From the IMG/VR virus record IMGVR_UViG_3300032240_002557, positions 1 through 64,000 of that record: a stretch of DNA of 64,000 nt. One strand, written 5' to 3'. The DNA is from a virus. The translations under genes and the position numbers were made by a program. This document shows positions 22,956 to 50,443 of this stretch, in pieces (position 1 is the first letter of the stretch; the number at the start of each line of letters is the position of its first letter). The notes beneath the pieces were generated by a model. That model was not told where the DNA came from and did no database searches. It was given only the letters and a program-made list of their open reading frames with translations.

Positions 22956-23519
22956 ATGAAGCTACCTAAAAAATACCTGACAAAAAACCCTAATGTCATG
23001 AAAAGGGAAATTAAAAAACATGGGGATAAAGAGGATAATGATTCTTCTGCATATGGTCCATGGGATGCTGATTATAAATCAAGAAAAGCGGGAAAAGGTA
23101 AACCAGTAGAAACAAAACCAAGCAAATACACATCTAAATACAAGAAGATGTATGGTGAAAGTTTAGAAATACCAGATTTTAAAGGATTTATGGAAGCTAT
23201 AGAAATAGCAGCATGGGAAGTTTACGACGAGCTTAAAGAATCAGAGGATATCAATGAGGGTGTTGATTCCCCATCCAGCCCCGTGAATAAAGCACTTAAG
23301 AATAAATCAGATAAGACCAGATTTCCATTAGGTATACTTAAACAGGTTTGGAAAAGAGGATACGCTGCCTGGAAAAACGGTCATATTCCAGGAACAACCC
23401 CACAGCAATGGGCAATGGCTAGAGTTAATTCATTTGTAACTGGTGGTAAGACGACTAAAATGGGAGATAAAGCTTTATACCAAAGGGGCAAGGCTAATAA
23501 GAAAAAGAAAAAAAAATAA
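22956..23519 (+). CDS. DUF5824-like phage protein, candidate internal head protein
   Basis: Residues 120-165 read GILKQVWKRGYAAWKNGHIPG followed by TTPQQWAMARVNSF, the signature of the DUF5824-type proteins found in T4-like cyanophages and relatives (a short basic helix, GH-x-PG, then QWAMARVNSF). Their function is unknown. An INE-G sequence at residues 99-102 fits a prohead protease site, which would separate a basic N-terminal half from this domain. The C-terminus is an almost pure Lys tail. Start ATG 22956 has AGAATATATAA about 10 bases upstream, a variant of the promoter box. First of three plus-strand genes. Confidence 0.65.
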   Translation: MKLPKKYLTKNPNVMKREIKKHGDKEDNDSSAYGPWDADYKSRKAGKGKPVETKPSKYTSKYKKMYGESLEIPDFKGFMEAIEIAAWEVYDELKESEDINEGVDSPSSPVNKALKNKSDKTRFPLGILKQVWKRGYAAWKNGHIPGTTPQQWAMARVNSFVTGGKTTKMGDKALYQRGKANKKKKKK

Positions 23520-23525
23520 TATTAT

Positions 23526-24932
23526 ATGTTAAAATTTATTAAACTATTTGAAGAGTTTTCAAAAATGCAGTTTCCTGAATTCTCTATGCCAAATTCTTAT
23601 GAATTACCTAAAGGGCTTTCTGAAAAAGGCATCTATGTTCTTCAATTAAACGAGGTACCTGATAATGATTGGTATATTCTAGCGGATTATGAAACGATTA
23701 AAAAAATATACAAAGCGTTGAATATTTATTTAATAGCAGAAGAAATAGAAGGGTATTATGATATTTTTTATGGAAACAACACGAGGGAAGAGGTTATTAG
23801 TAGAAAACAAAAGATAGAAAGAAGCTTTGAGATAAGAATAGTAGCAGAAGCATATAAAGACGGAGGTCCTTACTGGGTATATTTTGGAAAGCAAGAGGAC
23901 TGGAGCTTAGCACAATTAAAGGACATAGCAGCAAGCTGCCAGGTTTGCGGAATTGAGCCAAGAAAGGATTCCCTGGTTCCGGGGGATTCAAAGAAGAATG
24001 ATTCAGGAGAACAAAGGTTAATAATTTTTGATCAAAATAGGGAACTGAACTTAACTCCTTTATACTTTGATAGTAAAACCAAGTGGGATCAATTTTACGG
24101 AAAGAAGGATGAAAATAATTTGGACATGGCTTTTTATGTTAAATTTGAAAAACCTTCCCTTTTTATGGATAACGTACACCCCGGGGATACGGCCCAGTAT
24201 GACTACAGATTCCTGGATAAATTTTTGGTTAATCCGTCAGCTCTTATTAATCTTCTGAAAAGAGGATATGAATATCTAGACACTGTGGCGGAGGAGATAA
24301 AAGACCGAAATAATAGAGAGGATTTTATTTCTTCTGTGATGTCAGCACTCGTAGATGTGGGTGTTTCTGCGAACGTACTCAGTTTTATATCTTCCAAATT
24401 ACAGGCAAAAGAAGATTACGAATCGGGTGAATTAGTAAATTATTATAGAATTCCTGTCACAAGCAAGGTAAGACGGATGTTAGACTGGAGCGGTAAGAAT
24501 TTTTCAAAAGAATATGATGCACATCAAGGATCATTCCATTTGGGGGTTATTGATGATCGAAAAATATTAGATTATATTATAAGTAATCTTCCAGAAAAAT
24601 CTAGCGATATAATAGATCTCATTAATTCCAAACCAGACTCATATTTTAATGCCCTTGGAAATTATTATGCTGAAGCTAAGTTAAATGGTGAGGAAACTGT
24701 TTCAGGGCAGAGAATGAAAGAGATCTTGAATTATAATGTATATCTAATAGATTATAAAAATATAGAGAATGCTACATTTAAGAAAGTAGAGAATATGGAC
24801 TTTAGTGATTTTAACGATCAAACAAATTGTATTTTTGAGGTAGGAATATTAGATGATATTTCATACGATTACATTAAGACAATAGATCCACTAGATCTTT
24901 ACATCTCTATATTTTATGGATTTAAAAAATAA
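23526..24932 (+). CDS. Hypothetical protein with a capsid-targeting-like N-terminus
   Basis: This 468-residue protein matches no family I know. The first 14 residues, MLKFIKLFEEFSKM, resemble the short amphipathic leader of T4 internal head proteins (MKTYQEFIAE). The body has aromatic, mixed alpha/beta sequence with a CQVCG pair near residue 140 and a DNLxDN-like acidic middle. It starts 6 bases after the previous gene and ends 8 bases before the next. It may be a packaged protein; an effector or toxin-like role cannot be excluded or shown. Confidence 0.5.
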   Translation: MLKFIKLFEEFSKMQFPEFSMPNSYELPKGLSEKGIYVLQLNEVPDNDWYILADYETIKKIYKALNIYLIAEEIEGYYDIFYGNNTREEVISRKQKIERSFEIRIVAEAYKDGGPYWVYFGKQEDWSLAQLKDIAASCQVCGIEPRKDSLVPGDSKKNDSGEQRLIIFDQNRELNLTPLYFDSKTKWDQFYGKKDENNLDMAFYVKFEKPSLFMDNVHPGDTAQYDYRFLDKFLVNPSALINLLKRGYEYLDTVAEEIKDRNNREDFISSVMSALVDVGVSANVLSFISSKLQAKEDYESGELVNYYRIPVTSKVRRMLDWSGKNFSKEYDAHQGSFHLGVIDDRKILDYIISNLPEKSSDIIDLINSKPDSYFNALGNYYAEAKLNGEETVSGQRMKEILNYNVYLIDYKNIENATFKKVENMDFSDFNDQTNCIFEVGILDDISYDYIKTIDPLDLYISIFYGFKK

Positions 24933-24940
24933 AAGGAGTA

Positions 24941-25174
24941 ATGGAAAAATACGGATATAAAAACATCAGCACAAGAAGCGAATTTGAACAAGCTTCAGCA
25001 AAAGACGGTAGTCATTCTTTTTCTTATAACTCTGGAGATCATGTAGGTAATTACGGATTTATTAATTGGGGCGATCAGAATCAATGGGGATCACCGGGTC
25101 AATCTAAATATTCGGTTAAGACTGTAGATCAATTACTAAATGCGGGTAAAACTGTTTCAGAAACTTCTAAATAA
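24941..25174 (+). CDS. Small Gly/Ser/Asn-rich protein
   Basis: This 77-residue protein, rich in Gly, Ser, Asn and aromatic residues, has no recognised domain. A purine run AAAAGGAG stands 2 bases before the ATG, closer than an ideal ribosome-binding site. Its last 8 bases overlap the end of the convergent glycosyltransferase gene. It may be the last gene of the short plus-strand operon. Confidence 0.45.
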   Translation: MEKYGYKNISTRSEFEQASAKDGSHSFSYNSGDHVGNYGFINWGDQNQWGSPGQSKYSVKTVDQLLNAGKTVSETSK

Positions 25175-26552
25175 AATCTCTAATTCTTTGATCTAATATT
25201 ACGTCTGCTTCTTCAACGTTTTGCATTCTTCCATGAAAACCAAAACATGTTCCGAGTGTGTGAAATTCATCAATCTTATTTTCAACACCAAAGATTTTAG
25301 CAAGTTCTAATGGAGCTATTTTTAATCCAGATACTAATAATTCTTTTCTGTTATTTACTACTAGGAGATAATCCTCATTCCCACCTGGGTACCACTCAAG
25401 TGTTTTTCCAAATTCAAGAAGTTTTTTACTTCGAAGAGAAATGCCGCCACTACCCACTTCCGCATTAGGGATTCCGAGCGGAGGTTCAGGCCAAGGACAT
25501 CCAATGTAGTCATAATTAAAAAATTCATCTGTCCAAAATTCAGGATTTAAAGGATATCCATCATCTTGGAATGTTAAGCAAAAATCAGTATTAATGTAAT
25601 TAGGAAGGTTATAAATTATGAATTTATTATATTCTTCATAGGATACAGGATCTATTTTTATATGTTTAATTCCTTCTATTCCAGGATCAAAAGGACTTAC
25701 AAATATAATTTCTGCAAATTCAAATCTTTCTTTAAGATATTTAAAGATTTTTTTATATCTATTAGGAATATAATAATCCTTAATTTTTTCTTCAGGTCTA
25801 CCCTCCATACAAAAAGCAGTCACATTAGGAAGTTTTAATTTTTTAATTTCCAGCAATGGATCGTAATTAAGATTATTAATCTTCTCCTTAATGAAAGATT
25901 CTGCTATTTCTAATAATCCATAATTTCTGCCATGAAATCCAAAGCATCTATACAGATTATGAGCTTCGTCAATAGGTTGTTCAACTGCAAATATTCTTGC
26001 AACATCTAACGGAGCTATTTTAATTCCAGCATCTATAGTTTTTTTCCTTCTACTTCTTAGAACAAAGCTGTCCTCGTTTTCACCGTTATGATAAGGCAGG
26101 GTTGAACAGTATTTTAAATATTTTTTACTTCTTAAAGAGAATCCCCCGCCTCCAACCTTTTCTATATTACCGCCTGCAAATAAACTATCAGGCCAAGGTG
26201 TTCCTATGTAATCATAATTAAAGAAACGATCGTCCCATAAATCTGGATTGACTATAAATCCATCATCTTGAAATATTAGGCAGTAATCTGTATCAATGTA
26301 ATTATGTAATTGATATAAACAAAATTTACTATACTCTTTATGAGTCATAGTATTATGAGAAATGAACTTAACCCCCGGTGCTTCAAATTTAAAATTACCA
26401 ATAATCTTAATATCACCAAAATCTATGAATTTTTGCATGAAAGATACTATTAACTTATATCTCTCCCTAGCGCCTAATTGTATATCAAGATGATCATCAG
26501 GTCGTGCGTCTATGCATATTGCGGTAACTCTTCTAAGATCTAGCTTTTTCAT
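25167..26552 (-). CDS. Tandem-duplicated DUF5672-type glycosyltransferase
   Basis: Two similar halves can be seen, about residues 1-215 and 225-461. Each has CLIFQDDG/CLTFQDDG with the acidic metal-binding pair, then NPDLW or NPEFW, FFNYDYIG and PW, then a VG-GGGFSLRSKK or VGSGGISLRSKK strand, and ends with CFGFHGR. This is the pattern of DUF5672, a GT-A-like glycosyltransferase family usually found as a single domain. Both halves keep the QDDG and HGR elements, so both may be active, perhaps adding two sugars. It is the last gene of the sugar operon, one base from gmd. Confidence 0.75.
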   Translation of the reverse strand: MKKLDLRRVTAICIDARPDDHLDIQLGARERYKLIVSFMQKFIDFGDIKIIGNFKFEAPGVKFISHNTMTHKEYSKFCLYQLHNYIDTDYCLIFQDDGFIVNPDLWDDRFFNYDYIGTPWPDSLFAGGNIEKVGGGGFSLRSKKYLKYCSTLPYHNGENEDSFVLRSRRKKTIDAGIKIAPLDVARIFAVEQPIDEAHNLYRCFGFHGRNYGLLEIAESFIKEKINNLNYDPLLEIKKLKLPNVTAFCMEGRPEEKIKDYYIPNRYKKIFKYLKERFEFAEIIFVSPFDPGIEGIKHIKIDPVSYEEYNKFIIYNLPNYINTDFCLTFQDDGYPLNPEFWTDEFFNYDYIGCPWPEPPLGIPNAEVGSGGISLRSKKLLEFGKTLEWYPGGNEDYLLVVNNRKELLVSGLKIAPLELAKIFGVENKIDEFHTLGTCFGFHGRMQNVEEADVILDQRIRDFI

Positions 26553-28489: not shown

Positions 28490-28501
28490 CTAATTTATAT
28501 T

Positions 28502-29188: not shown

Positions 29189-29193
29189 AATTA

Positions 29194-29769: not shown

Positions 29770-29790
29770 TTTATTTTTTTTATATTTAAT

Positions 29791-32363: not shown

Positions 32364-32382
32364 AACGATTTCTCTCTTTATT

Positions 32383-33116: not shown

Positions 33117-33845
33117 ATGAAAAATTTACAACCATACTGGTTCTTACAGAATCCAATTGATGCTGAGCATAAGTATTATGTTCTAATGGACTTCTTGCAA
33201 TCGGTTGAAAGAGACTTAGACGAAAAGAAATATTCAGATCAGATCCAAAGAATAACCCGGGTTTATTCGGATTTGAAAACATTTCAAAAATCACACAAGT
33301 TAAACGATAAGACACTTAAACTAATGACCCAAGAGGAGCTTGATCGAATGAAAGAACTTGTGAGAGATATCAAAGATAACGAAGAGGTAGAAGAAATATT
33401 AATAAAGAGTATAGAGACCTTAGATTCTTTTATAGATAAGATCCATCCATACATCAAAGAGATTGAAAAATCCCTAACATTTAAAATACACAACGAAGAT
33501 ACTTTTTCTAAAGATCGGGGTTATATGATTATTAGAAATAATAAGAATAAGAAGATGAAAATTTATTCTTGGATGTTTTCTATTATCAAAGTCGATGATA
33601 TCGATCAAGTTGGATTACTCTTAAGCGAATTAATGGATCCCTTGCCCAATTACACTAAATCGGATAAAAAAATATACGATTTCTTTTCTAAGGAAATTAA
33701 TAATTTTTCCCCACATAATGATTGTTTTATTATAGTGGATTTAGAAAAAGGAAAAAGCGAAGATGAAATATCTTTCGATTTAATAAAAGAAAGATCGATT
33801 GAATTTATAGTAAATAACTATAGATTATATCTTTCACTGTTATAG
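33117..33845 (+). CDS. Hypothetical protein, 242 residues
   Basis: The sequence is mostly helical and charged (Lys/Glu/Asp), with a predicted coiled coil near residues 60-110 and an alpha/beta C-terminal half. The N-terminus has LQPYWFLQNPIDAEHKYYVLMDFLQ, an ordered start without leader. I recognise no family. Its last 6 bases overlap the end of the convergent gene. A role in replication or regulation cannot be told. Confidence 0.5.
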   Translation: MKNLQPYWFLQNPIDAEHKYYVLMDFLQSVERDLDEKKYSDQIQRITRVYSDLKTFQKSHKLNDKTLKLMTQEELDRMKELVRDIKDNEEVEEILIKSIETLDSFIDKIHPYIKEIEKSLTFKIHNEDTFSKDRGYMIIRNNKNKKMKIYSWMFSIIKVDDIDQVGLLLSELMDPLPNYTKSDKKIYDFFSKEINNFSPHNDCFIIVDLEKGKSEDEISFDLIKERSIEFIVNNYRLYLSLL

Positions 33846-34403
33846 TTCTCTTTTTGAGAATCTGTCGCACTTAGCAACAACACTGTCAAAATCTTCTTGT
33901 TTAATCCCTGCAGTTGCTGGATTAAAATCCTCGAAGTCTATGTATTTCTCGTCAATCTCCGGATACTCGTTAACAAATGCTATTTTAATCATTCCTTCGT
34001 ATGGTGAATAATAAAGGTCGCAAATAGTATTGCTATATTTCACTCCGTTATAACAAAGCATATAACCATCGGGAAGAATAATAGGTCTATAGTTAGATCT
34101 TGCGTCTAAATACTTTTCAACCTTAGGAATTAGTTTATCTATTGCTTCCTGCGAGGATGTCCTTAATGTGTTGATTCTAAATGCTCCGGATGATCTAAAA
34201 ATTACATCCATTAGCTCCCTTCTTTCGATAGTGTTTAATTCCTTGTAGATCATTTCAAGGTCTTCACAGAAATCATTCTTGGTATATCCTAATCGGTGGT
34301 CATACACCTTAGAATATTTAAACGGCGGAGTTTCCGCACCCCTTTCGTGAGATCCTGCAGACGTGCTTTCAAATAGCCCTTTATATGTTTTTAGATGTTT
34401 CAA
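33840..34403 (-). CDS. Hypothetical protein, candidate packaged head protein
   Basis: No family is seen. The leader MKHLKTYKGLFES resembles the T4 capsid-targeting peptide (MKxYxxF). The start is TTG 34403, chosen because the frame is open, no ATG lies near, and an exact GGATATATA box is 13 nt upstream. The body is mixed alpha/beta, 187 residues, with DGYMLCYNG and acidic ends. It may be a small internal protein made at the same time as its divergent neighbour. Confidence 0.5.
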   Translation of the reverse strand: MKHLKTYKGLFESTSAGSHERGAETPPFKYSKVYDHRLGYTKNDFCEDLEMIYKELNTIERRELMDVIFRSSGAFRINTLRTSSQEAIDKLIPKVEKYLDARSNYRPIILPDGYMLCYNGVKYSNTICDLYYSPYEGMIKIAFVNEYPEIDEKYIDFEDFNPATAGIKQEDFDSVVAKCDRFSKREL

Positions 34404-34474: not shown

Positions 34475-35194
34475 ATGAAAGTTGTTAAATATTCAGAATT
34501 TAAACTGAAAGAATCTAAGGTTAATGAGGCTAAATATCTTATTATGGCTGAAAACCTTGATGCTCATCACCAAGACATGATCGCAAAAGGATTAAGTGAG
34601 TCTGAGATTAACGAAGGACTTGGTGATCTTTTAAGCTCTTTGGGTGGTGGTTTTACTGATAGATTAAAGAACTATGCAGCTGGTTGGTTACTTAAAAAGC
34701 TAGGATTACCTGCAGATAACATGTTTCTTTCAGAATGGGCAAAGAACATCGTGGAGAATATCTCATTCATGCACATTGGTAATTATTTTGGTAAAGGTTC
34801 TTGTAGATACTGGGCAGATGCTATAGGTAAAGGACTACTAGAGACGTTAGAAGAAAAAACCTTAGGACTTATTCTTTCTAAAGCTATCGGTATAGATGTT
34901 AACTTTAATAGCGGTTTAGGCGGTACGTTGATGGGTTCATTACGTGAGGCATTAACAAACTATATAAACAACACTGACTTTGTTAACAATTTATCTGCTA
35001 AATTAGAAGGAACAGTTTGCGGAGAGGGAACTTCATTTACTAATATATTTGGGGGAGGTAAAGTTTCCCCAAAGGATATAGCAGGTGCTGTTAAGACAAA
35101 AGAGGAAAACGCAGCATCTAATGCAGCAGGACTTGGAGATATAGTTTCTCCAGAAAAATCCGGAGGAATATTAAGCCTTTTGGGAATACAATAA
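34475..35194 (+). CDS. Candidate internal head protein with INE-G cleavage site
   Basis: The protein begins MKVVKYSEFKLKESKVNEA and has SEINEGLGDLL at residues 43-51; both VNE-A (16-19) and INE-G (45-48) fit the T4 gp21 protease rule ((L/I)xE before G/A). After the cut site the chain is Gly/Leu/Ala-rich, with amphipathic helices (residues 50-170). I chose ATG 34475; a TTG nine bases earlier is less likely. A packaged protein processed during head maturation is the best reading. No known domain. Confidence 0.65.
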   Translation: MKVVKYSEFKLKESKVNEAKYLIMAENLDAHHQDMIAKGLSESEINEGLGDLLSSLGGGFTDRLKNYAAGWLLKKLGLPADNMFLSEWAKNIVENISFMHIGNYFGKGSCRYWADAIGKGLLETLEEKTLGLILSKAIGIDVNFNSGLGGTLMGSLREALTNYINNTDFVNNLSAKLEGTVCGEGTSFTNIFGGGKVSPKDIAGAVKTKEENAASNAAGLGDIVSPEKSGGILSLLGIQ

Positions 35195-35207
35195 AACATA
35201 GATCAAA

Positions 35208-35462
35208 ATGAACATTAAAGACGTTAAAAAAAGAGAGGTTTTAGACTTTAAGCAGTTTTTAAAAGTTGCTGCTGATCCGTGGAATAAAAAGAACCTTAGT
35301 AAGGAAGATAGAACAGGTGCACACGAGATAAAACTTGAAAAACCTTACGAGTATGTTGGATATGGTGATTCAATTTTTAAACACCAATCTAAAATAGATT
35401 ACCCAGGAACAGGAGCTCAGGAGTCAGGAATGGCTGCTAATTTGGGAACTCCTGCAGAATAG
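35208..35462 (+). CDS. Small protein, candidate head-associated
   Basis: An 84-residue protein with an N-terminal segment VLDFKQFLKVA that resembles the leader of neighbouring candidate packaged proteins. The rest is Lys/Gly/Pro-rich and probably disordered. It is 13 bases after the previous stop and 29 bases before the next start, in line with an operon. No family known. Confidence 0.5.
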   Translation: MNIKDVKKREVLDFKQFLKVAADPWNKKNLSKEDRTGAHEIKLEKPYEYVGYGDSIFKHQSKIDYPGTGAQESGMAANLGTPAE

Positions 35463-35491: not shown

Positions 35492-36088
35492 ATGGAAAAA
35501 AAGATACTAAGTTTTGAAGAATTTTCTAAGCAATATGCTGAGGGAGCATTTGATCAAAACACAGATATGGAGGATTCCACACAAGAAACTCCGGATGAAA
35601 ACGTAGAAGATGACGGTGGCGCAGATTCTATAGATTTCACATCAGACGACGAGACTGAAGATGAAAACGAAGAAACAGACGGAGTTCCTGCAGATGACAT
35701 GGAAGATGATTCAGAAGATATGGATTCTGAAGATGAGGGGGATTCTGATAGTGATCTAGAAGATGCTGCTTCTGATGATGACGGTGAAGAAGAAGAGGAG
35801 TGGGAGGAAATGGAAGAAGACGAAGATTACGAGGAAGAAGAAATGGACGAGGAAGAAGAGGAGATGGAGGATTACGAGGAAGAAGAAATGGACGAGGAAG
35901 AAGAGGAGATGGAAGATTACGAAGAGGAAGAATGGGAAGAAGAGAACGAAAATGAGCATGAGCACGAAGAACATGAGTCTCATGAAGAAGAGCATGAAGA
36001 ACACGAGCACGAAGATGACGAAGAAGAAGATGAAATAGAGGGAGCAGAAGAAATTTACAACCCTGCATTCAACAGCTTTTTCAACTAA
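35492..36088 (+). CDS. Very acidic repeat protein, candidate prohead core protein
   Basis: After a leader MEKKILSFEEFSKQYAEGAF (YAE-G at residues 15-18 fits the protease rule) the remainder is almost wholly Asp, Glu, Ser, with a His/Glu-rich part near residues 150-175 and an ordered C-terminus NPAFNSFFN. T4 gp67 and gp68 core proteins are likewise small and acidic and are cut by gp21. Two 45-base repeats build the middle. TATAAATA, the T4 late box, occurs 8 bases before the ATG, too close to serve clearly as promoter. The gene is followed by a terminator. Confidence 0.6.
   Translation: MEKKILSFEEFSKQYAEGAFDQNTDMEDSTQETPDENVEDDGGADSIDFTSDDETEDENEETDGVPADDMEDDSEDMDSEDEGDSDSDLEDAASDDDGEEEEEWEEMEEDEDYEEEEMDEEEEEMEDYEEEEMDEEEEEMEDYEEEEWEEENENEHEHEEHESHEEEHEEHEHEDDEEEDEIEGAEEIYNPAFNSFFN
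35825..35914 (+). repeat. Two 45-bp tandem repeats in the acidic gene
   Basis: Two near-identical 45-base units (35825-35869 and 35870-35914), each starting GATTACGAGGAAGAAG, with a partial third copy from 35915. They code for a 15-residue acidic unit (YEEEEMDEEEEEMED). The near identity points to recent duplication. Confidence 0.85.
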
Positions 36089-39663: not shown

Positions 39664-41847
39664 CTACGACAGAACTGAGACAAATTTCTTTCTAAAAGCG
39701 TCTATATCATCATTTACCCCGCCATACCAAGTTGACAATTTACTTGCTAAATGCTTATCTAAAGATTTTGAATATACTGTCTTGTAAGCTTTACTTAAGA
39801 TGCTAATTGAATCACTGCTCCAATTAATACAATCCTTACATGCTCTGCCTGGGTCAGAATCGAATTTACCAAAAGCAACAGCGTATTTAACAGGAACACC
39901 CGATTTCATCAGAATTGATAACCTATCTTTACTGCCATCGTTACCCTTGAATTCATCATTCTTTATGCTATAAAATCCTAGCATCTTATCAAACAATCTT
40001 AATGCCGTTCCGTTTGCATAGAACCTAATTCCATTTGCTGTTGCTACTGCCATTTGACCATTCTTGCCATAATCTGGATTTTCCGTTGCTCCTATCTCTT
40101 TAAGTTCTTTAACTGCTTGTTCTTTAGACCATTCTTGTTTTGCTTTAGCAACTGCATCATCGATCTGCTTCTTAACAGAGCCTGAAGAAATCTTTGGTGC
40201 AGCTTTCATGATTTCTTTAGCGTTCTTATTAAGAGTGCTTTTTGCTGCTTTAACATCTTCTTTTGTTGTTGGCTTAGGGCCATCACCGCTGGTTCTTCCA
40301 ACAGAAGCTTCTGCAGCTTTCAGATTGAATTCTTCCGAAACAGAAAAGGACTCTTTTAATTTATCGTCATGTGATGAAATCTTATCTATTAATTCTTGCG
40401 TGATATCACTAGATTTATCCTTAAGCTCAAATCCATTTTTTAGATATTTAATAAGAGCATCTGTTGATTTTCCAAAAATGCCATCTGTACCGTATTTAGC
40501 AAATTTGTCATATTCTTCAGATTTTCCTTTCAATCCCTTCATTTTGTCAATTGTCAGTTTTTGAAATTTCTTAATGTTATCCTTATCCTTGCTTCCTCTT
40601 TTGATTGGTTCTTTTATCTGAAGATCACTCTTAGTCGTCCCGCCATCTTTCTTACCTGCTTCTTCCTCCTTTTTCTTAGCATCCTCTGCTTGTTTCTTTG
40701 CAGTATCAACTTGGAGTTTAATTTTATAATTATTCATAGCAGTATCTGCCTCAATCTGTAAAGCCTTCTTAGCTCCTTCTGCTCTGTCTAAATGATCTTG
40801 CAAAGTAGGGACTGCGATTAATACATTAGAATAATCCGCTGATGCTTGTACTTCTGATTTATATGCTGTATTGAACTCTTCTAATTCGTTATTAAACAAT
40901 GCAACAACAGCATTTAATCTCTCTCTTTCAGCCCCCCAATTAACACCCTTTGGATCGATCCCTTCACCAAATTTAGTTTCAAGCGAATTAACTCTCTTGT
41001 AAATATTATTGAAAGCAGCTTCTTTATCTAAAGCTTTTAAATTTCTTTCACCTGGATTATTTCTAGCACTTGCTATTGTGTTCATTACAGAATCAAGTCT
41101 AGCTTTTAAAGATTCAATATTTGTAATAAAATCTTTTTTATCCCTGTTCGTTTTTCTGTCCTCCTTAGATCCAATTACAAAATCAAAAATACCTTCGTTT
41201 ACTATTTTAGAATATGTTTTAAAATCAACGCAGATGCTGCTATTAGAAAGATGCTCTAAAACGTTATCTGAATTGTATGAAACATCCTGATATGCAGATT
41301 CTTGAATTTTTATATCGTCGGAAAAAGCCTTGATATATTTTTGAAGAGCTAATTGTACTTCATCAGTCTGCTGTCCTATCACATCTCCAACCTCTTTTGC
41401 TTTTTTGGTAATATCATCTATTGCAGCAGTTTCTTCTGCTACCATTTTATTGAACTCTGAAAGCCATTCTTCAAATATTTTAGGATCATATTCTTTCTCT
41501 TGAGCAATCTCTTTTTTAAATCGATCATACTCAGCAACTATACCAGGTAAAACAACACTATTAACCTGAATATCTACGTTTTTAACAGTATCAATTTTAG
41601 CTCCAATTGCAGCTAAATTTGTTTTAAAAGATCTTCTAAAATCCCTTGCAACTTTAGTCGGCGGGTACGTAGACACTGCATATCCGAAATTGCTGATCAA
41701 TTCTTGAGTTATCTTGATCATAGTTCTTGCATAAGCTACATAGCCAAGTCCTTTATCAACGCTTGCTTCAGTAATGCTAGGGTGTACGTAACCTTCAGCT
41801 TTTTTTACAAGGCTTTCAAATAGTGGATTTACGATTTCGTTTCTCAT
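39664..41847 (-). CDS. Internal virion protein with NE-G site and peptidoglycan-binding-like domain
   Basis: The N-terminus has NPLFESLVKKAEG and ITE-A (25-28). Near residue 211, TYSKIVNEGIFDFV matches the segment FSKILNEGVFDAV in the gene at 47852, so the two are paralogues. Residues about 411-490 have the fold of peptidoglycan-binding domain 1: I-x-x-FQ, then DGIFGKSTDALIKYL. Between them are coiled-coil stretches (100-190, 290-400). A packaged, protease-processed protein that might touch the cell wall on entry is inferred. The C-terminal 100 residues include a CKDC pair. It overlaps the next gene start by 4 bases. Confidence 0.7.
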   Translation of the reverse strand: MRNEIVNPLFESLVKKAEGYVHPSITEASVDKGLGYVAYARTMIKITQELISNFGYAVSTYPPTKVARDFRRSFKTNLAAIGAKIDTVKNVDIQVNSVVLPGIVAEYDRFKKEIAQEKEYDPKIFEEWLSEFNKMVAEETAAIDDITKKAKEVGDVIGQQTDEVQLALQKYIKAFSDDIKIQESAYQDVSYNSDNVLEHLSNSSICVDFKTYSKIVNEGIFDFVIGSKEDRKTNRDKKDFITNIESLKARLDSVMNTIASARNNPGERNLKALDKEAAFNNIYKRVNSLETKFGEGIDPKGVNWGAERERLNAVVALFNNELEEFNTAYKSEVQASADYSNVLIAVPTLQDHLDRAEGAKKALQIEADTAMNNYKIKLQVDTAKKQAEDAKKKEEEAGKKDGGTTKSDLQIKEPIKRGSKDKDNIKKFQKLTIDKMKGLKGKSEEYDKFAKYGTDGIFGKSTDALIKYLKNGFELKDKSSDITQELIDKISSHDDKLKESFSVSEEFNLKAAEASVGRTSGDGPKPTTKEDVKAAKSTLNKNAKEIMKAAPKISSGSVKKQIDDAVAKAKQEWSKEQAVKELKEIGATENPDYGKNGQMAVATANGIRFYANGTALRLFDKMLGFYSIKNDEFKGNDGSKDRLSILMKSGVPVKYAVAFGKFDSDPGRACKDCINWSSDSISILSKAYKTVYSKSLDKHLASKLSTWYGGVNDDIDAFRKKFVSVLS

Positions 41848-42704
41848 TGTATTGTTCTTTTTACTTTCATTTTAAGTACGGATAACTTGTTGTTTAAATC
41901 AAGTAATGCTCTTTTATGTGCATCATTTAATTTATTTATTTGTTCTTCTGATAATCTATAAGAAGGTATATCACCACCCCTATAGGCTTTAGTTTTCAAA
42001 GATTTAAGATACATGATCTTTTCTTTATGCTTAGCATCAAAATCAACTTTCATAATTTGACCATCTTCAAGCATTTTTGCTAAATCTTTCTTAGGTAATG
42101 AATTGATGTCTTGAATGAATTCATTCAGAGGTTTATCAAACATACCCATAGTATATTCATCGTAATCTTCGTATGAAAATTCTCTATCCGAAAAACTTGG
42201 TCTAGAATTAACTTTCTGAGCTTGATCGTCCAGCTCTTTCCAGTGATTATAAAATTGTTCTTCATAATTATAATCTTTAAATCTTTTAGATTTTTCGTAT
42301 GCATATTGAGCTATTCTAGAATCTGCCTGAGCTTTCTCTTTATTATAAAAGGCTATTAGATCTGCATTCTTTTTGCATATTCTAGCAGCTTGATTTCCTA
42401 GAACCTTTACCTCTGCTGATTTTGCTGATTTTAGAGCATCTAATGCTCTTCTTGCCATAAATCCTTTATGCTTTGCATCGGTCATTTCTACAGGATTTCC
42501 TTTCCTCTGAGATTCACTAGAGAATACTATATAATTCAATTCATCAGATTGATCTAAGAATTTCTTTTCAAGCGCTTCCATATTAGAAATAAGGGCTGAA
42601 AGCTTTTGCTTGTCACCTCTAATAAACGAAGCAGCACCGCCTATAAGATCTTTTAATATGCCTTCGTTTATTCTACTTGATATGAAGTCTGAGTATTTCT
42701 TCAT
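41844..42704 (-). CDS. Candidate internal head protein with T4-like capsid-targeting leader
   Basis: The first 15 residues, MKKYSDFISSRINEG, closely follow the T4 internal protein leader MKTYQEFIAE-A, with the cut expected after INE (12-14). The rest is helical, Lys/Glu/Asp-rich, 286 residues, with DLIGGAASFIRGDK after the cut. T4 IPI, IPII and IPIII are cleaved in the same way and are injected into the cell. Located in the head operon between two other candidate packaged proteins. No known domain in the body. Confidence 0.7.
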   Translation of the reverse strand: MKKYSDFISSRINEGILKDLIGGAASFIRGDKQKLSALISNMEALEKKFLDQSDELNYIVFSSESQRKGNPVEMTDAKHKGFMARRALDALKSAKSAEVKVLGNQAARICKKNADLIAFYNKEKAQADSRIAQYAYEKSKRFKDYNYEEQFYNHWKELDDQAQKVNSRPSFSDREFSYEDYDEYTMGMFDKPLNEFIQDINSLPKKDLAKMLEDGQIMKVDFDAKHKEKIMYLKSLKTKAYRGGDIPSYRLSEEQINKLNDAHKRALLDLNNKLSVLKMKVKRTIQ

Positions 42705-42706: not shown

Positions 42707-43876
42707 TTACGCAGCTTGCTTAATTTTTTCTTCAACTTCTGCCAAAACCCCTTCAATATCCGATGCCTCTCTGTAGATATTATCTTTATAATCTTTTATA
42801 CTATCAGGATTGTCTGCATTAGGTGTATTCTTAACTGGATACTCAATAAATTTCAATCTACTTACTCTTCTTTCAGCTTCTTTCAGTTTTGTTAGACATT
42901 TATCCTTAATCTGAACGTTTTCATTATCTGCTGTCTTAACTACTGATATTTTAGAAATTGCTATGTTCATCAGATTCATACAAATCTTTTTAAGATCGTC
43001 GAATGTTCTTTCTCTGTTTCTGTATTTATTAATTCCCCAGGCTTTAGTCTCAACAGATTTTTTCATCTCTTCAGATTCTTTCTTAATAAAATCGCTCAAT
43101 TCTTTAACTGATGCTAGGATCTCTTTTGAATAAGTCTCAAACACATTCTTAATTTTCTCAGAAGGCATTTTAGTAGTTTCATCTTTAGCTCCTAAATCTG
43201 TTTTGATCTTGTTTAAATCGTCTTGTGATTTTTTAAGGTCTTCTTCTGCTTTTTTAGGATCGCCTAACATATCCTGTATGCCTTTTAAGTACCCTTCTTC
43301 GTCAGAGGCAGCAACTAATTTCTTTTTAAATTCTGCTCTCATCTTCTTAGTCTCTACTGAATCCTCTGCTCTCTTTAAATTGTAATACTCAGATTTTCTA
43401 TTATTCTTCTTTGTTAGAATATTCACTTGTTTTTCTAATTCATCCATAATAGAATTATGCGATGATACTAAATCTTTTAATAACTTTTGGACTTTAACAA
43501 GTTTAACCCGAATCGAATCAAGTTCTGTTTTATCAGCTTTATCCATTCTTAGCTGAGCAAGTGCAGAGCTTAGCTTATAAAATTTATTCTCTGTTTCATG
43601 CTCGTCCTTAATGAACTTGATCTCTTCATCTTTCATTTGCTGAAGGATTTTGTCTATCTTACCTATATCACCTCCTAAATTCTTGGAAAGAAAATTCATA
43701 ATTTTATCCCCAATACCCTCGTTAATTCTATAAAGATTTTCACAAAGTACATCTTCATCAACTTTTGAATATTTACCGTTCATCAACTTCATCTTGGCAA
43801 TATCAACGTTACCGTATGATTCAATGATTGCTTTTTTACAATCTTCGTAAAAATTAAAATTTTCTAATAATTCCAT
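42707..43876 (-). CDS. Candidate internal head protein, coiled-coil, INE-G site
   Basis: A 389-residue, mainly coiled-coil protein rich in Lys and Glu. INE-G at residues 51-54 (LYRINEGIGDKIM) fits the prohead protease rule; the first 50 residues would then be a longer leader. It is likely co-produced with the next two proteins (2-base gap, then 4-base overlap). An exact GGATATATA box is 16 nt upstream. Confidence 0.65.
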   Translation of the reverse strand: MELLENFNFYEDCKKAIIESYGNVDIAKMKLMNGKYSKVDEDVLCENLYRINEGIGDKIMNFLSKNLGGDIGKIDKILQQMKDEEIKFIKDEHETENKFYKLSSALAQLRMDKADKTELDSIRVKLVKVQKLLKDLVSSHNSIMDELEKQVNILTKKNNRKSEYYNLKRAEDSVETKKMRAEFKKKLVAASDEEGYLKGIQDMLGDPKKAEEDLKKSQDDLNKIKTDLGAKDETTKMPSEKIKNVFETYSKEILASVKELSDFIKKESEEMKKSVETKAWGINKYRNRERTFDDLKKICMNLMNIAISKISVVKTADNENVQIKDKCLTKLKEAERRVSRLKFIEYPVKNTPNADNPDSIKDYKDNIYREASDIEGVLAEVEEKIKQAA

Positions 43877-43976: not shown

Positions 43977-45719
43977 TTAAGCGATACCGCCTGCTGGCAC
44001 TTGAGCGAAGAAAGTCAAGTACATAGTTTGAGGGTGGTGTCCAGCCTCTACTAATGCATATCTTGATTTTACTGCGATCTTTGGTGACATTGTACCTTCA
44101 GAGATAGTCTGAATTGATTCAGCCATCATGTAAGGCATAAATTTGATACCTGGTTCGTCATCAGCACCTTTTCTTCCAATCAATACTCTCGTATCTCCGA
44201 AAGACATGTTTTGATCAACATAAACAGTCATACCAGCGATTGAACCAACTGGGTATAAAGTACCGTTATTTTGAGTTAACGTGTTTGTGAAAGGAGCGAA
44301 TGTGAATTGGCTGATATCTTGTAAAGCAGAAGCTACTTGAGAGTTAGTAACGATGAAGTTAGCAGGTCCTCTTCTTCCTCTGTTTGCTACTACGTTAGCA
44401 GCAGCTAAGATTCTTGAGAATAATCTTCTTTGAATAGTTGATTGGTTCTCGTATCCGCCTGAAGCAGGTCCATCAGGTTGGTTGATAGTAACTGATCCGT
44501 TATCCTTACCGATGTAAGACTTATCGTTACCAGATCCACCGATCTCTAATGTGATGTTTAATGAGTTGTTAGATGCACCACCTAATTCAGTGTTTGCAAA
44601 CTCATAGTGGTTAGACCATCCTAAAGCAAATGCTCTAGATAAGATGTGCTTGTTAATAGCTTGAGAAACCTCGTTAACAAGTGCGTTCTCGATCATAGAA
44701 ACTACGTCGATACCGAATTGCTTGTTCAAATCTTGGATTTGCTCAGTAGTAACAGAAGCAGCAACTTGGAATGTACCAGCCTCTACAAACTTAGTGAATG
44801 TAGAAAGACCTAATGACTTGAAGTAAGTGCTTTCTGCAGTTCCTCTTGACATTGGATCGTAAGCCTTAGTACCATCTACGTATGGTCCTTGCCATGCTGC
44901 TGTGTTATCTAAACCAGCACCAGTAAATCCTTGTACGTGATCTTCTAAAGTTTTAACTAAAGTAGCCGCGCCATTTGAATAACCTGCTGTTGCAGAAGCT
45001 GTGAAGCTTGAACCGCCCCAAGTACCTGAATAGATAACAGAGTTAGCGTTAACTGCATCAGCGATTGAATAACCAGCAGATAATGCAGTAACTTGGAAAA
45101 TAGGGAAACCGTCAATTCTTGAATTACCGATGAACTTAGCAACTAATTTGCTAGTACCACCTGTAACTGATACAGAACCTGATAATCCGCTAGCACCGAT
45201 CAAATAGTTTGTACCAACTGTTAAACCAACAACTGGAGAAGCTACTGATGTAGGAACTTTGATTAAATCAGGAGCGTTAGCTGTGTTAGGAGATGTAGTA
45301 TCAGTACCGGTTAATTTACCGCCTGCATATACATAATCTAAGTAAGATAATACGCCTGTAGGACCAGACATTGGGATAACTGGAACGATATCAAAACCTA
45401 CTGTTTTAGCAGCTACTTGAATAGCTAAAGGTAAAAGAGAAGGGAATTTATCGCCAGAACCAAGACCTGTTCCAGAATAAGAACCGCCAGCATAGAAACC
45501 AGCAGCACCACCGTTCAAACCTACGTTTGAAGCTGGAGATACTTGGCCCATACCGTTTAATACGCCTAGAGAGTTATACGCTCCGGCAGATTCGTTTAGA
45601 GAGTGATAGTGGCAATATGTTGTTAACCAGTCTAATTTTCCTCTCTCTTGAATACCTGTTTTGCTCTCTAAGATAGGAGCCCAGGTTTCATAGATTTCAT
45701 GTTTGTTAATTAGTTGCAT
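43977..45719 (-). CDS. 23: Major capsid protein, gp23-like
   Basis: A 580-residue protein (T4 gp23: 521). The middle has VAASVTTEQIQDLNKQFGID and IENALVNEVSQAINKHIL, helices of the HK97-fold spine as in gp23; RRGPANFIVTNSQVASALQDI matches the GRGEGNFII strand region. The first ~43 residues, ending LNE-S at 41-44, would be the propeptide removed by the prohead protease. Residues about 150-270 are Gly/Ser/Thr-rich beta sequence, maybe an inserted domain. Codon use is even and rich in preferred codons. It follows the protease-scaffold gene by 13 bases and is followed by a terminator. Confidence 0.85.
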   Translation of the reverse strand: MQLINKHEIYETWAPILESKTGIQERGKLDWLTTYCHYHSLNESAGAYNSLGVLNGMGQVSPASNVGLNGGAAGFYAGGSYSGTGLGSGDKFPSLLPLAIQVAAKTVGFDIVPVIPMSGPTGVLSYLDYVYAGGKLTGTDTTSPNTANAPDLIKVPTSVASPVVGLTVGTNYLIGASGLSGSVSVTGGTSKLVAKFIGNSRIDGFPIFQVTALSAGYSIADAVNANSVIYSGTWGGSSFTASATAGYSNGAATLVKTLEDHVQGFTGAGLDNTAAWQGPYVDGTKAYDPMSRGTAESTYFKSLGLSTFTKFVEAGTFQVAASVTTEQIQDLNKQFGIDVVSMIENALVNEVSQAINKHILSRAFALGWSNHYEFANTELGGASNNSLNITLEIGGSGNDKSYIGKDNGSVTINQPDGPASGGYENQSTIQRRLFSRILAAANVVANRGRRGPANFIVTNSQVASALQDISQFTFAPFTNTLTQNNGTLYPVGSIAGMTVYVDQNMSFGDTRVLIGRKGADDEPGIKFMPYMMAESIQTISEGTMSPKIAVKSRYALVEAGHHPQTMYLTFFAQVPAGGIA

Positions 45720-45732
45720 TGTTTTATGTAAC

Positions 45733-47805
45733 TTATTTTTTAAATCTAACTTCTAGTGCTTCTGAAAGATTTTTTAAATACTCGCTGGAAACACCTTTTG
45801 GTTGATTCTCTTGTTTTTGGGATTCGTCTATTCTTTCGACGTTTGCCTTAGATGCACCGATACCTCTTGTTGCCCAGAAATTCTGGATTTGATAAGGTGT
45901 GTCTAATTTATAGAATTTGCTCTGTGCCATGATTGAAGCTTTTTGACCCTCATTCATTGACTCCCAAGAGTTTCTATATTTTTCTGGCATAAGATCTAGG
46001 AATTTTTCACCTGATTGATTTTGCTCATTTAAGGTTTTACCCATGATATCAATTACCTCTTTTTCGGATGAGTAATTGCTCTCGTTAAGTGCTTTTGCTG
46101 CCTTTTGTTTTTGGCCTTCGTGCATTGCTAAGAATTGATCTTGATTCTCTTTGCTCATAAGCTTTAAGAAAGGATAATTTTTTTGCTCTGCTATTTGTTC
46201 TGTCTTTTGTTTATTGACAGTTTCTAACAAGTTGTCTATTTTAGAAGAAATTCCAGTGTAATCACCAGCAAATCCTGAAGTGTTTGCACTTTCAGAAATA
46301 GCTTTAGTTACTGCTTCTTTAACTTCTTTTGTTCCGTTAGCTGTATTCACTGTTTCAGCAATGTATTCAGCATAACTAATATTGTTAGCTAATTTCTCAG
46401 CTAAGTATTCACTGTAATGAAGTGATTTGTCTAAATTCTCACCTAAGTAATCAGAGTAAGCTAAACCTTTATCTAGGTTTTCTGCTAAGTACTCAGAATA
46501 AGAGATATTCTTATCTAAGTTCTCTGCTAGGTATTCAGAATAAGCTAAACCTTTATCTAGGTTTTCTGCTAAGTACTCAGAATAAGAGATATTCTTATCT
46601 AAGTTCTCTGCTAAGTATTCTGCATAAGAAATGTTCTTATCTAAATTCTCAGCTACGTATTCTGTATATTTAATGTTTTTGTCTACGTTCTCTGCTACGT
46701 ATTCTGCATAAGCAATAGATTGATCAACTTTCTCTGTTAAACCTTTAACTGCTGACATGTTGCTATCAACATTCTCTGCAATATACTCAGAATAAGAAAT
46801 GTTATTGTCTAAATGCTCTGCTAAATATTTAGCATAAGAAATAGATTTATCAAGATTTTCAGCAAGATATTTTGAATATGAAGTTGTGTCTTCTAAGCTT
46901 TCAGCTAAGTATTCGCCATACTTAATAGAAGCTTCAAGGTTTTCTGCCAAATAATCAGCATATCTCTCTAACTTTTCTACTCTTTCCTCAAGGGAAGAAC
47001 TTGCTTGTGTTTTAGAAGATTCTTTAACGCCTCTTAATGATTCAATAGACCCTTTAATAGTGTCCATTTCTTTTTTAATTAGCTTAGAATATCCATTCAT
47101 TTCTTCCGCTGTAACGAAATTATTTTCCATGATTAAATTCTTATTTGGCTCCTTATTTAGAAGCTTTTGTATCTTTTCTTGATCTTTTATTCTATATATC
47201 TTAAAATTAGAGTTTTCCTCTATTCCTAAGCTTTCATTCATTAAAGGAAGACCTTTTAAAATAGATTCATTTTTAATTTTTTCACTAACTTCGTGTCCAA
47301 GACTTTCATATACTCTTTCTAATTGAGCATTTTCAAATCCAGGGTCAGCAACTAGATCGTAAGTAAAGATCTTCTTGATTTGTACTTTTTTGTTCTCTAA
47401 CACATTACCAGCTGCTCTTGAAGAGATTGAAACTGGAATACCTGCATCAACTAAAGATTTAGCAATTTTACCTGCTGGTGTATCTAAAAGTCTTACTTTA
47501 ATCCTTAATGTTCTATCGTTTTGATCATAGTTAAGTTCTTCAACTAGGTGAGAGATGTTCTTCAAAGAAACATCAAACTCTTTTGGGTGATCTAATTCAC
47601 CTACTAATCTTTTTTGCTCTATCTTTTCTTTTAAATATTGCAAATGTGGAAGATACTCTCTTTCCTCGTAGATTCTTTGATTAGAATTCTCCTTACCGAA
47701 AACTGCTGCTATCCCCTCAAGGAAATAGTCATTACCTGATTTTTCAGTCTTCAGGTTTTGCGAAGATTTTTCTAAGACTAAAACGAATTCGTTATTAAGG
47801 TTCAT
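45733..47805 (-). CDS. Prohead protease (gp21-like) fused to coiled-coil scaffold (gp22-like)
   Basis: Residues 1-180 resemble T4 gp21/herpesvirus-type prohead proteases: GELDHP with His73 and PVSISSRAAG with Ser128/Ser129 are the catalytic elements; the family lengths of 200-220 fit. From 282 to 487 there are 14 full 14-residue units (YxEYLAENLDKNIS type), and the C-terminal 200 residues are helical with LNE-, MNE- and HEG-containing segments (LNES at 573-576, MNEG at 617-620) that may be self-cut sites. In T4, gp21 and gp22 are separate genes. An exact promoter box lies 20 nt upstream. Confidence 0.8.
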   Translation of the reverse strand: MNLNNEFVLVLEKSSQNLKTEKSGNDYFLEGIAAVFGKENSNQRIYEEREYLPHLQYLKEKIEQKRLVGELDHPKEFDVSLKNISHLVEELNYDQNDRTLRIKVRLLDTPAGKIAKSLVDAGIPVSISSRAAGNVLENKKVQIKKIFTYDLVADPGFENAQLERVYESLGHEVSEKIKNESILKGLPLMNESLGIEENSNFKIYRIKDQEKIQKLLNKEPNKNLIMENNFVTAEEMNGYSKLIKKEMDTIKGSIESLRGVKESSKTQASSSLEERVEKLERYADYLAENLEASIKYGEYLAESLEDTTSYSKYLAENLDKSISYAKYLAEHLDNNISYSEYIAENVDSNMSAVKGLTEKVDQSIAYAEYVAENVDKNIKYTEYVAENLDKNISYAEYLAENLDKNISYSEYLAENLDKGLAYSEYLAENLDKNISYSEYLAENLDKGLAYSDYLGENLDKSLHYSEYLAEKLANNISYAEYIAETVNTANGTKEVKEAVTKAISESANTSGFAGDYTGISSKIDNLLETVNKQKTEQIAEQKNYPFLKLMSKENQDQFLAMHEGQKQKAAKALNESNYSSEKEVIDIMGKTLNEQNQSGEKFLDLMPEKYRNSWESMNEGQKASIMAQSKFYKLDTPYQIQNFWATRGIGASKANVERIDESQKQENQPKGVSSEYLKNLSEALEVRFKK
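46466..46633 (-). repeat. 84-bp tandem repeat coding for scaffold units
   Basis: Two near-identical 84-base copies, 46466-46549 and 46550-46633, differing by only a few bases, each coding for two 14-residue units of the scaffold repeat. The other units are more diverged in DNA. The identity indicates recent gain. Confidence 0.85.
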
Positions 47806-47825
47806 TCTAAGTTTTTTTATTTAAG

Positions 47826-47834: not shown

Positions 47835-47851
47835 GTTTTTCGTTAAGCTTT

Positions 47852-50443
47852 TTATGGTTTAGGCATATTTGATGCCTCGGGTGCTTTCGAAGTAGATTTT
47901 TTGCCTTCTTCTTCGCTCTCTCCTTTTTTAACTATTTTAACACCCTGGTTAGCTAGATCAAGTTGTTCTTCTGTAATATCTTTGATATTTTCTGCTAGTT
48001 TACTCTCATTTGAGTTCAATCTATCAATAGCTTCTTTAACAAGTGTTAATCCATCAGAATAATTAACAGTATCTCCTTCCTCTAAACTTTTTGCATCAAA
48101 ATCTGGGAAATTGTGGCAGTCTCTTTTTAGAGTTGAATGAATTTCTTCTATCTCTGATTCAAAAGTTTGCTCTTCACTTTTTGCGTACCTTTCTTTAAAA
48201 TCTGCCCAAGCAGATATTGCTGCTGTTCTTTCTTTATTAGCGGTCCATGCACCTTTTAGTAAACAAAGTGTAGCCATAATTGCTTGAAGATCTTCTCTTG
48301 AAACGAATCCGTCTATTGTATTAATCATTCCTCTTGTTATCTTAAGCATACCTGCTCTTGAAATAAATCCATTACCAACTGATATTGCTACCTTTGTTCT
48401 GGTTCCCCACCAAGCTGTTCCCATTCCTGATAATGCGCCTGCTCCTACTGCTATAGGTACTGATCCAACTGCAAGTGCTGCTCCCCCACTAGCTGCTGCA
48501 GCTACCGTTGAGCCTAATCCAAGTGAAAGAGCTAAACCCCCTGTTGATGCTGCTGCAGAAGTTGCTGCTGCTCCCATTAAAGCACCAGATCCTGTTGTTA
48601 CCGCTCCTATTGCACCGCCTACGCCTGTTGCTGTTCCTGCAGCTACTGCTGGAACTGCAGCACCTAATGTAAGTGCACTAGCAATTACAATTGCTGTTAC
48701 AGCTCCTGTAACTTCAGCAACCTGTAAGGCTGCCTCACCCGATGATTCGTCATAATTAATGACATAAATTCCGTTGTCTGCTGGTTTTAATCCTTGCCAT
48801 TTCTTTTCCTCAACTTTCTTATTATCATCATTATCTACTATTACGTCTTGAATTATTTTATCATCTTTATAAGTAGAACATACAGCATCAGCTATAGAAA
48901 GTTTATTTTTATCGCTACTTCCTTCACCACTTACCTGAGGCTTGCTACCGACATTTTTTGCTTTATCAACTAAAGATTTTTCAGCATCTTTCACTGCGTC
49001 AAACACGCCTTCATTAAGTATCTTAGAGAAACTATCAAAAGAAACGACTGATGTTCCTTCATTATATTCTGCTTCAAATATTTTGCTTTCTAATACTTTA
49101 CTGTAATCTAAAGAATCTTTTACTGGTTTAACAGGTGCATCAATTGTTTGTATTACTCTTTGTCCTCCTACGATCTTATTGTGCATGTCCTGTGTTAATT
49201 CACCGGTTGCACTAAATGCGGATGATTTTGTCAAGTAAGCATAATAAATATTAGCTAACTTAGATGTTACCTTACCGTATTTACCATCTGCTCCTCCTGC
49301 TTTGTTAATCAATTCAGCAACACAAGGTCCAAGCTTCATTAAAGCCTCTTGTACCTCAACTACAACATCGCATTTAGTACTACTAATTTGAATAGGGAAA
49401 GCACAATCTGTTGTTGTAACAACATTATCATCTCCAGTTTTCTTCTTCTTTTTCTTCTTTTTGTTCGGATCAACTGTTGTTTCTGCTCCTTCTACACCTG
49501 TACTTGACTGTGCTAAAGCAACGCATTTTCCTTTATTAGGATCGTATGCTTGACCAACAGGACAAATAACTATAGGTTGTGGAGGTGTAGGAACGTTTCC
49601 TATTCTATATTTAAGCTTATTAAATTCTTCTCTCTGTCTTGTTATCTCTGTAAGAATGTTTTGTACTTGTACTTTAAAATCCGATCTTTTTAAATTTCCA
49701 GAAGCTGTAGGAACCTTACCAGCTCCGAATAAACCTTTATTACCACCAATTGGCTGAATTTTTCTAGCTTTATCTAAGAGCTGTTGTGCTTGGTCTGAAA
49801 ATCTTTGGATGTCTGCATTTCCTGCATATGCCTTATTGCCCATTGCTGCTGAGGTTTCACCAGCAAACGATGTTGCAGCATCTAAAGCATTCTTAGCATA
49901 CTGTAAGAATTTATTGTCTACTCTAACGTCTTGGGTTTGTCCTTCCTCACCGGTTAAGTCTGTTTGTTGCTCAGAAAGATATTTAGTTAAAAGACTTTCG
50001 TTTTGTTGAAGTTGAGCTTTATTAGCTTGTAAAGCAGAGATTGTAGTTCCTGCGTAAGCATTCATATCATCTAAAACCTTTTTAAAGTTTTTAGCGTCTT
50101 CCCCAACTAAAGGTTTTAATTGATCAAATAAAGTCCCTAAATATGTCTTTGTTTGTTGATAAGCAGCTTCTTGAGCTTTATCTTTCATAGCGTATTCGTC
50201 AATCTTCTTAATAAATTCTTGTCTAAGACCATCGATAGAGCTAACTTGTAATAGTTTATCTACAAAAACTTTAAATCCATCAGGAGTTTTAATTGACTCG
50301 TCTGATCCCATAAGAATAACATTAACAAGAGTATCATAGATAGTTCTGCTAATTAATCCTGGGTTGTTTTTGGTCTCCTGTTCGTATAACTCTTTCTTTA
50401 GAGATTCGAAAATAGGATTGTATCCGTTGTAAATTCCTGACAT
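47852..50443 (-). CDS. Large internal virion protein with PG-binding-like domain and Gly/Ala-rich hydrophobic region
   Basis: 863 residues, paralogue of the gene at 39664: both start with NP(I/L)FESLxKK, share (F/Y)SKI(L/V)NEG(V/I)FD and a domain with DGxxGKxT. Here the PG-binding-like domain is at about 343-426 and the cut site ILNE-G at 475-479 (another YNE-G at 460-463). After it, from about 555 to 680, comes a long, nearly charge-free Gly/Ala/Val/Thr zone like a glycine zipper, with the look of a membrane or pore segment. N-terminal third is helical. It may be released into or through the cell envelope at infection. An 8-residue Lys run at 328-335 marks a linker. Confidence 0.7.
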   Translation of the reverse strand: MSGIYNGYNPIFESLKKELYEQETKNNPGLISRTIYDTLVNVILMGSDESIKTPDGFKVFVDKLLQVSSIDGLRQEFIKKIDEYAMKDKAQEAAYQQTKTYLGTLFDQLKPLVGEDAKNFKKVLDDMNAYAGTTISALQANKAQLQQNESLLTKYLSEQQTDLTGEEGQTQDVRVDNKFLQYAKNALDAATSFAGETSAAMGNKAYAGNADIQRFSDQAQQLLDKARKIQPIGGNKGLFGAGKVPTASGNLKRSDFKVQVQNILTEITRQREEFNKLKYRIGNVPTPPQPIVICPVGQAYDPNKGKCVALAQSSTGVEGAETTVDPNKKKKKKKKTGDDNVVTTTDCAFPIQISSTKCDVVVEVQEALMKLGPCVAELINKAGGADGKYGKVTSKLANIYYAYLTKSSAFSATGELTQDMHNKIVGGQRVIQTIDAPVKPVKDSLDYSKVLESKIFEAEYNEGTSVVSFDSFSKILNEGVFDAVKDAEKSLVDKAKNVGSKPQVSGEGSSDKNKLSIADAVCSTYKDDKIIQDVIVDNDDNKKVEEKKWQGLKPADNGIYVINYDESSGEAALQVAEVTGAVTAIVIASALTLGAAVPAVAAGTATGVGGAIGAVTTGSGALMGAAATSAAASTGGLALSLGLGSTVAAAASGGAALAVGSVPIAVGAGALSGMGTAWWGTRTKVAISVGNGFISRAGMLKITRGMINTIDGFVSREDLQAIMATLCLLKGAWTANKERTAAISAWADFKERYAKSEEQTFESEIEEIHSTLKRDCHNFPDFDAKSLEEGDTVNYSDGLTLVKEAIDRLNSNESKLAENIKDITEEQLDLANQGVKIVKKGESEEEGKKSTSKAPEASNMPKP

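Follow-up and report, generated by a model that had tools for sequence, protein, structure and literature searches.

Gene content of the window

The window analysed here is a stretch of 64,000 nucleotides, positions 1-64000 of a 99,912-bp IMG/VR virus record, and its source is an uncultured T4-type jumbo phage. In the stretch tested, no DNA match to the window was found among named phage records. The nearest named records to its capsid protein, at 28-46% identity, are an uncultured 462-kb phage, Prevotella Lak phages, Tenacibaculum phages and Sphingomonas phage PAU. IMG/VR holds at least 572 relatives; in comparison with the relatives L002-L004, the candidate proteins described below are about 30-70% identical, and the capsid and protease proteins about 86%. 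In a published freshwater Bacteroidetes jumbo-phage group (PMC9723584), the capsid, protease and portal genes are arranged in a similar way, and the genes next to them were left unexplained. The proteins considered, each called by the lower coordinate of its gene, are as follows (a slash marks a predicted cut).

22956..23519, + strand: DUF5824 protein (PF19141), predicted 101-residue propeptide ending INE101/G
23526..24932, + strand: protein with the leader-like start MLKFIKLFEEF
33840..34403, - strand: leader protein, MKHLKTYKGLFE12/S
34475..35194, + strand: leader protein, MKVVKYSEF..., INE47/G, site in 4/4 aligned sequences
35208..35462, + strand: small conserved protein, leader-like core REVLDFKQFL
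35492..36088, + strand: very acidic leader protein, LSFEEFSKQYAE17/G, leader and site conserved
39664..41847, - strand: candidate head protein, NPLFE11/S and internal VNE218/G, both sites in 4/4 aligned sequences
41844..42704, - strand: putative internal or core protein, paralogue of 42707, 14-residue leader, INE14/G, predicted mature part from 42662 downwards
42707..43876, - strand: putative internal or core protein, 53-residue propeptide then INE53/G, predicted mature domain from about 43717 downwards
43977..45719, - strand: T4-type major capsid protein (PF07068 Gp23, E=2e-40)
45733..47805, - strand: prohead protease with a long, repeat-rich, scaffold-like tail (PF03420/PF20034; PHROG head maturation protease, E=3e-35)
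47852..50443, - strand: candidate head or core protein, NPIFE13/S and SFDSFSKILNE478/G, directly upstream of the protease
50455..51207, - strand: putative nucleotidyltransferase-fold protein, leader RIKNFTNWVLNE15/D, cut uncertain

The matches to PF07068 and PF03420/PF20034 are all above the Pfam cut-off. Elsewhere in the window, positions 25167-32970 (- strand) hold a block of sugar-nucleotide and glycosyltransferase-like genes, with GDP-mannose dehydratase and fucose synthase types recognised by eye. A UvdE family UV endonuclease is encoded at 52815-53585 (- strand; Pfam E=1e-10), and a protein with collagen-like repeats and, by eye, a tail-spike-type C-terminal domain, probably a fibre, at 55743-58073 (- strand).

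Predicted cut sites and leaders

In T4, the prohead protease recognises L/I-X-E and cuts behind it, and targeting is directed by residues 4 and 7 of the leader (PMC9026906). A sequence-only reading of the window had placed sites of this kind in at least seven proteins (22956, 34475, 35492, 39664, 41844, 42707 and 47852), and all of the named sites are present, as is the LNE-S that it had noted in the capsid protein, a predicted cut at LNE43/S which is retained in 59/61 homologues. Its likening of the start of 41844, MKKYSDFISSRINE/G, to the T4 leader MKTYQEFIAE also stands, Y4 and F7 being common to both. The same reading had described three further proteins as leader-like with no clear site. 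This holds for 35208, whose leader-like core is conserved in about 38 homologues and for which no cut site was seen, either in the protein or in the inspected region of these homologues; it does not hold for 33840, whose LFE12/S is found in 8/8 homologues; and 23526, which has no site and no homologue in the fetched loci, cannot be judged. Beyond that list, we found N-terminal LFE11/S in 39664, IFE13/S in 47852 and a second site, IIE19/S, in 42707, as well as a second type of leader and the leader of 50455. The capsid protein has another predicted cut at ILE18/S; its motif copies at 313, 534, 541 and 558 are not processing sites, because they lie inside the conserved fold.

None of the conserved window sites has A three residues before the cut; I, L, V, F or Y stands there instead. 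In the alignments with L002-L004, INE/G of 41844 becomes LNE/G, INE/G of 42707 becomes IKE/S, YAE/G of 35492 becomes YAE or YTE/G, VNE/G of 39664 becomes INE or VNE/A, and LNE/G of 47852 becomes LTE or LSE/A, while INE/G of 34475, LFE/S of 33840 and LNE/S of the capsid protein are unchanged. The substitutions among relatives thus stay inside the predicted cut rule.

Two types of leader can be distinguished. The first resembles the T4 targeting signal and consists of F/Y, two residues and F/Y/W, with the site soon after; 41844 fits the T4 spacing exactly, and 33840, 35492 and 34475 are alike with the spacing shifted. The second, NP(I/L/V)(F/Y)E/S or a near variant, forms the N-terminus of 47852, 39664 and other proteins in the vicinity of the capsid gene (loci L031-L110), with 27 cases against 1.3 in shuffled sequences. 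The C-terminus of 35492, YNPAFNSFFN, contains NPAFNxFFN, which is also carried by its homologues in L031 and L093 and is related to this second type.

A fixed site at the start of a conserved domain

The profile search with the 42707 domain returned 93 homologues in the fetched loci, the 41844 family included. An (L/I/V)xE-type site lies a few residues from the domain start in 91/93, with G/A/S next in 80; the other two are partial profile matches in which INEG or LNES can be seen by eye. The stretch ahead of the site ranges from a 13-residue leader such as MTLNFKEWEKLNE up to 68 residues, and the sequences differ. A removable propeptide would predict such a fixed junction with an exchangeable front, and chance would not. 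The paralogy of 41844 and 42707 is taken from this larger search and not from the comparison of four-sequence profiles of each, which gave a weak match. Both genes adjoin the capsid gene, and the matches of the 42707 profile in the PDB are weak and mostly to coiled-coil-type chains.

The 22956 protein repeats this junction pattern, since its front varies and the site is kept at the start of the DUF5824 domain. Two DUF5824 relatives carry LNE/G and INE/S at the same position, and in a third a short leader-like start, MEYTKTYESWLLEE, stands immediately ahead of the domain. The idea of a T4-type set of leaders and sites in proteins of the head cluster is therefore borne out, with the sites at the start of conserved domains.

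Enrichment and conservation of the sites

The 13 head-set proteins of the window contain 9 copies of [ILV]NE[GAS], where shuffling predicts 1.2, and all other window proteins together contain 2, where it predicts 2.3; this count is partly circular, the head set having been picked by its sites, and is not relied on. We therefore turn to permutation of alignment columns, which preserves both composition and conservation. Over 4482 residues, the candidates have 20 conserved sites where 2.9 would be expected; four of the 20 are the capsid-fold motifs, which are to be discounted. Control genes have 21 against 14.7 expected over 10490 residues, mostly from genes with one relative only. Conservation among relatives had been one of the checks proposed from the sequence, and the sites are indeed kept at the same aligned place.

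The 54 capsid-gene loci of relatives gave a similar picture. N-termini combining a leader and a site were found in 194/1005 ORFs against 31 in shuffled sequences (about sixfold), being present in 135/379 ORFs near the capsid gene and in 59/626 further off. In T4, the loose leader pattern gave 19 matches against 13.7 shuffled, many of them false and with non-substrates among them, such as a 610-residue protein with FHPLNE/A, which we take to be the terminase. Because of these false matches, a strict pattern was used for the genome counts given below.

Individual proteins

The first rank of candidates consists of 41844, 42707, 22956, 35492, 34475, 33840, 39664 and 47852, together with the capsid and protease proteins. 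Searches of Pfam and PHROG found nothing for 41844, 39664, 47852, 34475 and 35492, and no sequence homology to the named core and internal proteins of T4 was seen. The missing match to T4 cargo lowers the case for common descent of the cargo, not that for the mechanism; the T4 internal proteins themselves diverge strongly from each other.

Asp and Glu make up 56% of 35492. Remoter homologues of 34475 carry INE/N at the site, and 39664 has a further site, ITE27/A. In the 47852 family, site 13 is present in 11/15 sequences and site 478 in 12/15. The C-terminal part of 47852 includes a glycine-rich hydrophobic stretch, which could make contact with a membrane; the AlphaFold model is of too low confidence to be interpreted (mean pLDDT 60, pTM 0.32). 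In some members of the family (e.g. in L046 and L047), the internal site and the C-terminal domain are separated by a collagen-like GATGATG linker, which differs in length and is absent from the window copy. Peptidoglycan-binding domains had been suspected by eye in 47852 and 39664, and Pfam searches with family members did not support them.

In the protease protein 45733, a cut is predicted at LMNE191/S, past the protease domain, with the site in 6/6 aligned sequences, and more sites are spread along the tail, which contains repeats such as SYAEYLAENLDKNI. Most simply, the tail would be a scaffold, and cutting would free the enzyme and dismantle the core. In Tenacibaculum phage PTm1, where the surroundings of the capsid gene were examined, ORF-300 is by annotation the same fusion as 45733 ('prohead core scaffolding protein and protease') and adjoins the capsid gene.

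The 50455 protein is the sole recognisable enzyme-like leader protein in the window. Its GS...DLD core is conserved, and its match to Pfam NTP_transf_2 (E=0.004) is below the cut-off of that family. The best structural matches are several nucleotidyltransferases, weak ones (E=6e-4, low TM-score). In the model, residues 1-15 are disordered and the fold follows, and homology beyond the clade begins at residue 18-22, with many phage homologues. The leader core F..(W/F)..LNE is kept in many homologues, and G/A/S comes next in few. We place 50455 in the second rank, because N-termini of the family beyond the clade vary with no clear sites. In tests of the T4 leader, Glu to Asp at leader position 10 inhibited processing and not targeting (PMC9026906).

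Comparison with known systems

The T4 set (IPI, IPII, IPIII, Alt, gp67, gp68, gp22 and the protease gp21) shares with the window the capsid and protease families, the (L/I)xE rule, the leader design (an aromatic residue at 4 and F7 in 41844), an acidic core protein and the location of targets beside the capsid gene. In contrast to T4, the cargo here has no sequence match to it, the protease is fused to a scaffold-like tail, the predicted propeptides reach about 100 residues or the sites are internal, and the second leader type is present.

Long propeptides are also known from the inner-body and ejection proteins of phiKZ and SPN3US, in which N-terminal propeptides, some of them long, are cut by a gp21-related protease, and some head proteins are ejected. 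However, the cut rule of SPN3US is A-X-E (PMC10052503), whereas that of the window is (L/I/V)xE, and the sites do not follow the phiKZ/SPN3US type.

The cultured relative PAU (JQ362498), with a capsid protein 32% identical, is like the window in having about 20 proteins with MKT(L/I)xxLYE/(A/S)-type leaders, many of them around the capsid gene. Unlike the window, it has another leader wording, separate protease and scaffold genes, and other cargo.

Processing model and alternatives

By analogy with T4, the head-set proteins are very probably precursors of prohead-core and internal head proteins that are processed by the phage protease. Short leaders or longer propeptides would draw the proteins into the growing prohead core. 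The protease (45733-47805) would then cut after (L/I/V)-x-E, mostly before G/A/S, removing the leaders, digesting its own scaffold-like tail and trimming the capsid protein. The mature parts would stay in the head, and at least some would probably reach the host with the DNA. Targeting, cutting and ejection are here carried over from T4: packing and cutting of the head set appear likely, and injection plausible.

Several members seem more like prohead-core or structural proteins than like effectors, since 35492 is acidic in the manner of gp67, 42707 and 41844 lie beside the capsid gene, 42707 has coiled-coil-type matches and 47852 is directly upstream of the protease. It is possible, if not the reading that we favour, that the proteins serve as core or scaffold for head assembly and DNA packing only, being cut up or kept, with few or none acting in the host. 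The best-supported members lie to either side of the capsid and protease genes, in the manner of gp67, gp68 and gp22 in T4; gp67 consists of LIE/G followed by an acidic tail, and 35492 is likewise acidic after its site; the PDB matches of 42707 and the likeness of the protease-scaffold fusion to PTm1 ORF-300 point in the same direction. However, a purely structural role fits poorly with the relatives, in which leaders occur on SET, LicD, CHAP, AAA, PAP2 and DUF285 proteins, many of them encoded far from head genes, and with the leader on the putative nucleotidyltransferase-fold protein 50455 in the window itself.

It seems rather unlikely that the cargo is, in the main, a cocktail injected to act against the host or its defences. 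T4 offers a precedent in its injected protein IPI, an inhibitor of the restriction enzyme GmrSD, and in Alt, by which RNA polymerase is ADP-ribosylated (PMC9958956), and the enzyme-like cargo of relatives would suit such a role; but Pfam and PHROG assign none of the window proteins to a known anti-defence family, and T4 core proteins carry such sites too, as do the structural-looking members here. It is very improbable that the motifs arise by chance in proteins rich in Glu and Asn and that the leaders are ordinary N-termini, for although (L/I)xE(G/A/S) is short and also occurs in control proteins and T4 non-substrates, this is contradicted by the 91/93 junction result and by the conservation and enrichment tests.

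Leader proteins in the genomes of relatives

Strict leaders exceed the shuffled expectation in PAU (20 vs 2.3) and in the relatives' genomes G004 (20 vs 2.4), G008 (13 vs 1.7), G001 (10 vs 1.9) and the incomplete G000 (4 vs 0.6). T4 gave 6 against 2.2, IPII and IPIII being among the six and IPI being caught by the looser pattern only. The relatives thus have about 10-20 strict leaders per genome, compared with three internal proteins in T4. In 65/67 strict leaders of relatives, L/I/V stands three before the cut, the pattern itself not admitting A. Two PAU proteins with such leaders, gp142 and gp154, were annotated by the depositors as 'internal capsid protein'. In a Lak phage (TAG read as Gln), few sites were seen in the stretch examined. 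For leader-bearing genes distant from the head genes, it is the leader that suggests packing.

The precursor reading of the window can be extended to widespread Bacteroidota-type jumbo phages, although here our confidence is evenly divided. In these phages the T4 leader may have become a general address tag, by which 10-20 or more unrelated proteins per genome, with swappable leaders, would be packed in the head and passed on to the host at infection; the cargo would include a SET-domain protein, nucleotidyltransferases of the LicD type and others, a CHAP peptidase, an AAA ATPase and tandem DUF285 repeats. The mechanism is known in kind, and what is new is its extent and cargo, the set in relatives being larger than that of T4. 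Foreign proteins have long been brought into heads by means of the T4 leader, and the leader was suggested as an evolutionary route to varied cargo (PMC9026906). Among open-licence papers, no report of such an expansion of leaders in this clade was found. A simple sequence rule would predict which proteins uncultured jumbo phages pack and name enzymes that may reach the host ahead of all phage gene expression, providing a way to pick candidate early effectors among hundreds of unknown genes; the prediction is testable in cultured relatives, e.g. PAU and the Tenacibaculum phages.

Several leader proteins of relatives may be recorded individually. In G004, a run of proteins with MK(N/H)xxxFxxF(L/I)NE/(A/S) (L151:14546-17442 and L152:325-2315) includes one confirmed DUF285-repeat protein, whose neighbours have the same repeat wording. 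The same genome encodes a SET-domain protein with the head-type leader MDFKSFEEILE/S (L152:4823-5302) and a leader protein, MTFLKYKEFLIQE/S, with an intein or Hint domain (L146:15252-16988). In G008, a CHAP-domain peptidase with the leader MRKIQSFSQFVSE/A (L135:2492-3283) may be a packed cell-wall enzyme. A MoxR-like AAA ATPase of G008 (L135:9621-11186), with the leader MKRIKGFQEFNRLNE/A, adjoins another leader protein, and its leader and start are resembled by those of an AAA ATPase in G001 (L018:5767-7254).
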